From an uncultured Thermomicrobium sp. (GTDB taxonomy: Bacteria > Chloroflexota > Chloroflexia > Thermomicrobiales > Thermomicrobiaceae), in assembly GCA_938028665.1 (NCBI GenBank), contig CALIMB010000007.1:1-47434 (forward strand): a stretch of DNA of 47,434 bases. The letters run 5' to 3'. This document shows, piece by piece, positions 6,999 through 10,436 of the stretch (the stretch's first letter is position 1; every line of letters starts with the position of its first letter). Under the pieces are notes generated by a model. The model had not been told where the DNA came from and searched no databases. It saw only the letters and a program-made list of their open reading frames with translations. A program made the position numbers and the translations under genes.

Positions 6999-7466
6999 TC
7001 ATGGTGGCCATGGTGTGTTCGTTCCAGGACCGTAGCTGCTGTAGGTCTGGTCGATATAGGTACGGATCTCCCGGAGCGATCGACCTTCAGCTGTTAGCCG
7101 CATCACGTCACGCGTGATGTCGATACAGATCGCTCAGCCAAAGGTCATGCGACCGAGCACAACTGATCCGTCCGGACGGAATGCCTCGATCGAGCAGTCT
7201 AGCACGGAGCGATGTCCTTGTTCGCCACAGCCACAGTAACAGGGGAAGTACTGGAGGATCTCGGGATGGGTAGCCGCGTAACGATATGCCTCCTGTGCTT
7301 CCGGGGAGGCCTGGTAGAAGATTGGTGGCCAGCGATCTTGGGAAGGCCAAGCAACGAGTTCCGAATCGCTGGTGGACAAGGATCTTCGCCCACACGCAGC
7401 GAGCACGGGCAGCTTGGCGATGCCGATCAGGAAGCGGCGTCGGGTTATGCTCCAGCGACTCGTCAT
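6999..7466 (-). CDS. PCYCGC-motif lipoprotein with in-frame TGA (candidate selenoprotein)
   Basis: Read through one TGA, this frame encodes 155 residues. A basic N-terminus (RWSITRRRF), a short hydrophobic stretch and a VLAAC lipobox (Cys25) indicate a lipoprotein. FPCYCGC at residues 74-80, then HRSVLDC, is the signature of the PCYCGC domain family (function unknown, Cys-rich, probably metal or redox). After FG110 comes TGA (7134-7136, codon 111), then AIC114, ITRDVMRL, LREIRTYIDQTYS and a stop at 6999-7001. In this family a G-C-x-I-C motif is expected at the TGA, so TGA replaces a Cys and would give UAIC with selenocysteine. If TGA is a stop, the product ends at residue 110 without its last motif. 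ATG at 7466 is chosen because the lipobox lies directly downstream. The C-terminal frame is intact and convergent with fakB. Confidence 0.7.
7101..7119 (-). promoter_or_regulatory. bSECIS-like hairpin after the lipoprotein TGA
   Basis: On the coding (minus) strand, 14 nt after the TGA, a perfect 7-bp stem CATCACG/CGTGATG closes a CGTGA loop. G is the second loop base, 22 nt after the TGA, and is followed by U. Bacterial SECIS elements lie just downstream of UGA inside the coding frame, with a G in the first two loop positions about 16-37 nt away; this hairpin fits. An internal palindrome (TCACGCGTGA) could compete. Confidence 0.5.
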
Positions 7467-7686: not shown

Positions 7687-8423
7687 TCAGCCGCCAAGGA
7701 GTTGAGACGAAAGGATCGACAACTCTGGGTGAGCCATGCTGTGGTCCTGACCGACTGCAGCATGGCCACAATTTGGTATGTGTGTCTCCTTGAAGAATGC
7801 CTGTAAGGAATAGCGTGGTCCGCGTCTTCGTCCTGGAAGGCGTTTGCGTGTTTCCTTGAAGAGTGCGTGTGGCTCATGCCGGTCGATGGGAAGCTTGAGC
7901 TGCTGGCTCGCGTGCTTAATGGCGCGGTGGAGCAGTCCGACTCGTCCGGCGGAATACCCTCATGGACTGCGCCAGAGAGACCGAGCAGCGGGTGCTCCGG
8001 TGATCGAGCTGTTGGAGTGGATTCAGGGGTGGCGAGCGAAAGAGCGTTTACAAAGAGAGTGCTCGCGCAGGCAGCAAGCGACAAGAGGCGCCACGCATCG
8101 AGAAGCCGGTCTCGCCGAGGATAGAGCCGCGGACATGGTCGTGGGCAAGAAGGAGCGGAGGCACTGCAACGACCTCTTCTACGACCGTGCAGTGGTTAGC
8201 GACTTCCATTGCGAGCTTGCATCCCTCGTGGAGCTCCGTTGCGAAATTGGCAGAGTAGACGCCAGCGGTGAGGGTGAGAAAGCGCTCTGCAAAGCACCGG
8301 TTGCTGCCATAAGGAACCCAGCTCCCACTACTGCTGGACAACGACGGCGCCGGGCGCAAGAGTTCGCTCCGCAAGTGCTGGGTCACCAGGAATCGCGAGA
8401 CTATCGTTCGGGAATGTTGTCAC
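7687..8423 (-). pseudogene. Debris of a membrane-protein gene, multiple frameshifts
   Basis: No single frame is open, but coding-like pieces follow each other on the minus strand in changing frames. They run: a start-like GTG at 8423 leading to SLAIPGDPALAERTLAPG; VVGAGFLMAATGALQSAF (hydrophobic); TLTAGVYSANFATELHEGC; a segment with LLSLAACASTLFVNALSLAT; LLGLSGAVHEGIPPDESD; and RVGLLHRAIKHASQQ followed by a His-rich tail with HIPNCGHAA and HPELSILSSQLLGG, ending at TGA 7687. The order is consistent with one integral membrane protein with a cytosolic C-terminal tail that has acquired several indels. I cannot name the family. It lies directly upstream of the PCYCGC lipoprotein on the same strand, so the two may once have formed an operon. 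The frame assignments are by eye. Confidence 0.4.
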
Positions 8424-9983: not shown

Positions 9984-10436
9984 TCAGACTGACTTGCTGG
10001 CCGTCGAAGCTTGTCCGGACCGAGTTCGCCACAAGAGCCGTGCGCGATAGGCGAGTGTGGAGATAAGTAGCGCAATGCCGAGCAAGCCGAGGGCGGGCTG
10101 GAGGGGTGCGAACCATTGGAGTGCTCCACTGCTCCCCAGGAGCAGCAAGACCAGCTTGTTGCAGGTTGGGCAGCCCACGGCGAAATAGGTAGCGATTGTG
10201 CCTACAGCGAGGCGTCGTTCCGGAAGCGGGCAAGCAGCTGGCCAGGCATAGGTGGCAGCCAGTGCTGCCGCCAGCAGTACCGTGGTACCGAAGAAAAGGT
10301 AGTCGACCGTATCGGGTGGGATCATTCGTCCAAAGATCGGATTTGGTATGAGGGCGGTGGGGACACCGATGATCAGCACCGTGACAGTGGCACCGAGGAT
10401 CGCGTAGAGCACGAGGCGTATCACATTTGGTTGCAC
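9984..10436 (-). CDS. Small polytopic membrane protein with CPTC motif
   Basis: About 150 residues with four hydrophobic helices: roughly 7-30, 46-66, 80-104 and 112-132. The third contains VGCPTCNKLVLLLLG, so a CxxC pair lies in or at the edge of the membrane. I do not recognise a named family. CxxC in a small membrane protein suggests metal handling or thiol redox, but nothing here proves it. The start is a GTG at 10436 preceded by AAAGGGG at good spacing; the gene is divergent from the MFS exporter, sharing a 97-bp promoter region with it. The C-terminus is basic and probably cytoplasmic. Confidence 0.7.
   Translation of the reverse strand: MQPNVIRLVLYAILGATVTVLIIGVPTALIPNPIFGRMIPPDTVDYLFFGTTVLLAAALAATYAWPAACPLPERRLAVGTIATYFAVGCPTCNKLVLLLLGSSGALQWFAPLQPALGLLGIALLISTLAYRARLLWRTRSGQASTASKSV

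Follow-up and report, generated by a model that had tools for sequence, protein, structure and literature searches.

Does the TGA that interrupts a lipoprotein gene of an uncultured Thermomicrobium sp. end translation, or does it encode selenocysteine (Sec)? The gene occupies positions 6999-7466, on the minus strand, of the 47,434-nucleotide stretch of DNA analysed here (the window). A preliminary description made from the sequence alone had proposed a candidate new selenoprotein, and the first half of this proposal stands: the TGA, a Sec insertion sequence (SECIS) and the Sec machinery together indicate a selenoprotein gene. The second half does not, as its family, PF13798 (CYCXC), is already listed among selenoproteins. 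On comparative evidence we put the probability that the UGA at codon 111 specifies selenocysteine in an exported PF13798 lipoprotein at roughly 0.94.

An in-frame TGA at an invariant cysteine position

The minus-strand frame begins with ATG at position 7466 and extends over 155 codons to the next stop at 6999-7001, likewise a TGA, and is interrupted only by the TGA of codon 111 (7134-7136), just as the preliminary description had it. The C-terminus expected of the PCYCGC family was said to follow this TGA, and the read-through product indeed matches PF13798 (PCYCGC/CYCXC) over residues 42-154 (E 4.7e-27; 95.2 bits, against a gathering cut-off of 25 bits). By inspection only, the N-terminal 25 codons (7392-7466) look like a twin-arginine lipoprotein signal, with a twin-arginine-like SITRRRFLIG segment and a lipobox LAAC ending at Cys25. 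They are followed by the CYCGC motif (Cys76, Cys78 and Cys80; 7227-7241), which is invariant in the family, and by the motif at the TGA itself, U111-A-I-C114, in which the Sec codon stands opposite a Cys invariant in Cys-containing homologues and forms UxxC with Cys114. The invariant columns of the homologue alignment comprise CxCxC, a His, a further Cys, the Sec/Cys site and the final Cys. The claim that the TGA replaces a conserved Cys is thus borne out, the column being invariably Sec or Cys, and near relatives have the TGA as well.

The closest named relatives of the protein are Thermomicrobium records. The gene was found in six of the seven Thermomicrobium genomes, that of the window included, the seventh being 54% complete, and each of the six copies contains exactly one in-frame TGA; in Thermomicrobium roseum DSM 5159 it lies at the same codon on the complete megaplasmid (NC_011961.1). 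At class level, 16 of 19 copies have TGA and the other three TGC (Cys), and a phylum-wide sample of Chloroflexota yielded further TGA forms and Cys forms. On the Bacillota side (398 genomes sampled from the phylum of an Alkalihalobacillus), TGA was found in three genomes. Throughout the copies read, the site is always Sec-TGA or Cys, and the only stop codon seen there is TGA, never TAA or TAG. Two genomes each contain two TGA-type copies (L084 and L090 in one, L086 and L088 in the other), and one viral-contig record has, close to its end, a short family-related fragment (31 residues, 41%).

Chance, sequencing error and decay can be ruled out because the TGA is shared across genomes and the column is invariably Sec or Cys. 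The window genome is a draft of 110 contigs, in which an error could have made TGA out of TGC or TGT, but the same TGA recurs in other, independent genomes, among them the complete T. roseum megaplasmid, which leaves this explanation a negligible probability, and it was rejected. Decay deserves more attention, given that the preliminary description had warned of heavy frameshifts in the gene upstream. That gene, a dienelactone hydrolase (PF01738), is indeed a decayed remnant in the window (about 7815-8417, minus strand); it is intact in three congeners (L077, L080 and L116) and apparently partly decayed in another (L078). The remnant lies outside the selenoprotein gene, however, and the decay does not reach it. 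That the gene is a pseudogene decaying along with its neighbour, with the TGA a plain nonsense mutation, is extremely improbable given a TGA at the same codon throughout the genus and in two phyla, never replaced by TAA or TAG in the copies read, a covarying hairpin (see below) and purifying selection on the sequence that follows. Across the six Thermomicrobium copies, the 42 codons 3′ of the TGA show dN/dS values of 0.10-0.29, so that the downstream frame, whose lack of conservation would have spoken for decay, is conserved together with the TGA, and the pseudogene reading was rejected.

SECIS hairpin and selenocysteine machinery

The perfect 7-bp hairpin with a 5-nt loop noticed 14 nt after the TGA proved to be real and conserved in 24 TGA-type sequences. 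It spans positions 7101-7119 on the minus strand (stem 7113-7119/7101-7107; loop 7108-7112, CGUGA), with the loop 21 nt from the TGA and a minimum free energy (MFE) of -11.3 kcal/mol. It lies inside each of the four limits set by the published model for bacterial SECIS elements, which specifies a loop of 3-9 nt, a stem of 4-16 bp, a G within the first two loop positions, a UGA-to-loop distance of 16-37 nt and an MFE of at most -7.5 (PMC13188914). When single sequences were folded the hairpin was no more stable than dinucleotide shuffles (z -0.02), and it was therefore judged by covariation and by comparison with Cys-type genes as a control; relative to synonymous codon choice, its stability gave a mean z of -1.25, individually modest. 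In the alignment of 24 distinct sequences of the TGA type, 95.2% of cells are paired and four of the seven pairs have changed on both sides; none of 500 shuffles reached the observed covariation score, and slid registers pair at no more than 62%. TGA-type sequences retain on average 6.8 stem pairs compared to 3.9 in Cys-type sequences (p 2.7e-7), and the hairpin as a class is missing from Cys-type genes; as the sequences are related, these covariation and pairing figures overstate the number of independent events. In the Thermomicrobium copies, dS is lower after the TGA than upstream of it (e.g. 0.38 versus 1.95), as would be expected of an RNA element overlapping the code.

A search of the window genome for the Sec machinery, suggested in the preliminary description, recovered all of its parts: a tRNA-Sec with anticodon TCA, and profile matches to SelA (549.8 bits), SelB (347 bits) and SelD (362.9 bits). 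The selD gene (G000:C19:10584-11519) itself contains an in-frame TGA, in CAGUAGK, a known Sec site of SelD, and SelD is a second predicted selenoprotein of this genome. Two congener assemblies, of 62% and 90% completeness, yielded no tRNA-Sec. A strong SelB match is present in 37 of the 41 phylum genomes with either form of the gene, and in all 21 of the most complete ones; the three TGA-type phylum genomes without one are 77-82% complete. On the Bacillota side, SelB is present in all three TGA genomes, whose PF13798 genes (L130, L131 and L132) also have SECIS-like hairpins, and is missing from two of the five genomes with Cys forms. In the proposed mechanism, SelB would bind the hairpin that starts 14 nt after the UGA and bring Sec-tRNA(Sec) to this codon. 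By comparative standards Sec insertion is near certain, because of the conserved TGA, the Sec/Cys column, the covarying SECIS and the complete machinery.

Against this stands the annotation of the type species in RefSeq, where the TGA is a functional stop yielding a short protein of 110 residues. The RefSeq PCYCGC lipoprotein of T. roseum DSM 5159 (WP_012642643.1; L129 2950-3267; NC_011961.1 573004-573321) stops at precisely this TGA. A certain amount of termination is normal at Sec codons, which also counts in favour of a stop. A protein ending there would nevertheless lack two conserved helices and an invariant pair of Cys residues, and the codons downstream are under purifying selection and overlap a SECIS. 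This makes a short product as the intended one very unlikely; the reading was rejected, and the T. roseum annotation truncates the protein at its Sec codon.

Possible function and exchange of selenocysteine with cysteine

With Sec at codon 111, the mature protein would combine C-x-C-x-C with an invariant His and one more Cys, and its C-terminal U-x-x-C would sit where a helix begins. It is most likely an exported thiol/selenol oxidoreductase or metal-handling protein, with the Sec-Cys pair as its putative redox-active centre and a weakly CcmH-like fold; thiol redox, as against metal binding, appears to have about an even chance. The predicted structure (pLDDT 90.3) consists of a helix, a Cys-rich loop, a short strand pair and the U-x-x-C leading into two helices. 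Its best fold matches in the PDB are the three-helix periplasmic domains of CcmH (2hl7 and 2kw0), with weak VIA Z scores of 4.7 and 4.4 that could reflect a common helical arrangement. The protein differs from CcmH in its additional Cys-rich stretch and in giving no match to PF03918 (CcmH) at E≤1, a model weakly matched by 3 of 35 family members (best E 0.0024). Profile searches gave weak matches to chains of saposin, CcmH and ferredoxin, and comparison with the profile of a Chloroflexota CcmH returned a probability of 4.8%.

A tentative alternative is that the protein binds copper or zinc rather than acting in thiol redox, the CxCxC, His, Cys and UxxC together forming a metal site. It draws on seven invariant residues that could act as ligands (C, C, C, H, C, U/C, C) and on Pfam assignments of one P-type ATPase and one COX2/cupredoxin neighbour, homologous genes being found beside several other copies, but neighbourhoods are variable and UxxC is a common redox arrangement. 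Among relatives, neighbours include thioredoxin-like, CcmH and DsbD proteins (L092), a cupredoxin/COX2 protein (L093) and a P-type ATPase (L097), and no stable gene partner was found beyond the genus in the neighbourhoods compared. Synteny with the downstream DegV/GPAT/DAK2 genes is confined to Thermomicrobium, and nothing obvious connects them to the lipoprotein in function. Elsewhere in the window (9984-10436), a hydrophobic protein of 150 residues with a CPTCNK motif has no Pfam match; a hypothetical protein of the same length lies at a like position beside the T. roseum copy of the lipoprotein gene (L129 1436-1888), the comparison covering only position and length.

On a tree of 46 rows, at least five changes between Sec and Cys forms are needed, two of them forced by well-supported branches. 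One Cys-type gene (L113, genome G225) keeps a broken version of the hairpin and belongs to the same genus as a TGA-type gene (L096, genome G378), and this pair likely represents a recent Sec-to-Cys switch. Loss of the Sec machinery as the cause of Cys forms was rejected, as most genomes with Cys forms retain SelB. The occurrence of both forms inside single families, one Cys form having a SECIS remnant, offers a tractable natural comparison of what Sec contributes. A fuller proposal, of an exported CcmH-like seleno-thiol (or seleno-metal) lipoprotein for maturation of cytochrome c or copper enzymes in Chloroflexota, with repeated Sec/Cys switching within one genus and forming a subfamily apart from OS_HP4, is speculative and on balance improbable.

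Relation to known selenoproteins

OS_HP4, now the CYCXC family (PF13798, UxxC, one Sec), is a listed selenoprotein (PMC13188914, PMC9312934). No literature linking the name "PCYCGC" with a selenoprotein was found, because reviews refer to OS_HP4 or CYCXC, and no paper found among the main texts of the open-licence literature names a Thermomicrobium member. As far as could be found, what is new is a well-supported Sec form of the protein, in Thermomicrobium and in Chloroflexota more widely; PF13798 is already a known selenoprotein family, and the window gene is a missed member, not a new kind. The present analysis adds to PF13798 a well-supported selenoprotein clade covering Thermomicrobium and much of Chloroflexota, and reveals a public annotation of the type species that is truncated at the Sec codon.

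PF13798 and UxxC are common to OS_HP4 and the window protein, yet OS_HP4 is attributed to a symbiotic deltaproteobacterium of Olavius algarvensis, whereas the host here is a Thermomicrobium of the Chloroflexota. NF041379, the NCBIfam "(seleno)protein" model for the CYCXC/OS_HP4 family, is matched by all 35 alignment members, and its cut-off was exceeded in none of 400 Chloroflexota genomes. Since the window protein scores 59 bits with this model, under the curated cut-off of 90, it is not filed as an OS_HP4 equivalog; compared through the profile and the listed motif, it is best described as a predicted PF13798 selenoprotein. The PCYCGC-motif lipoproteins of Bacillales, 31-42% identical to it (tblastn), have the same conserved set of Cys residues, with Cys at the Sec site, as in the Cys-form lipoprotein AOT13_14730 of Parageobacillus (PMC13068155).
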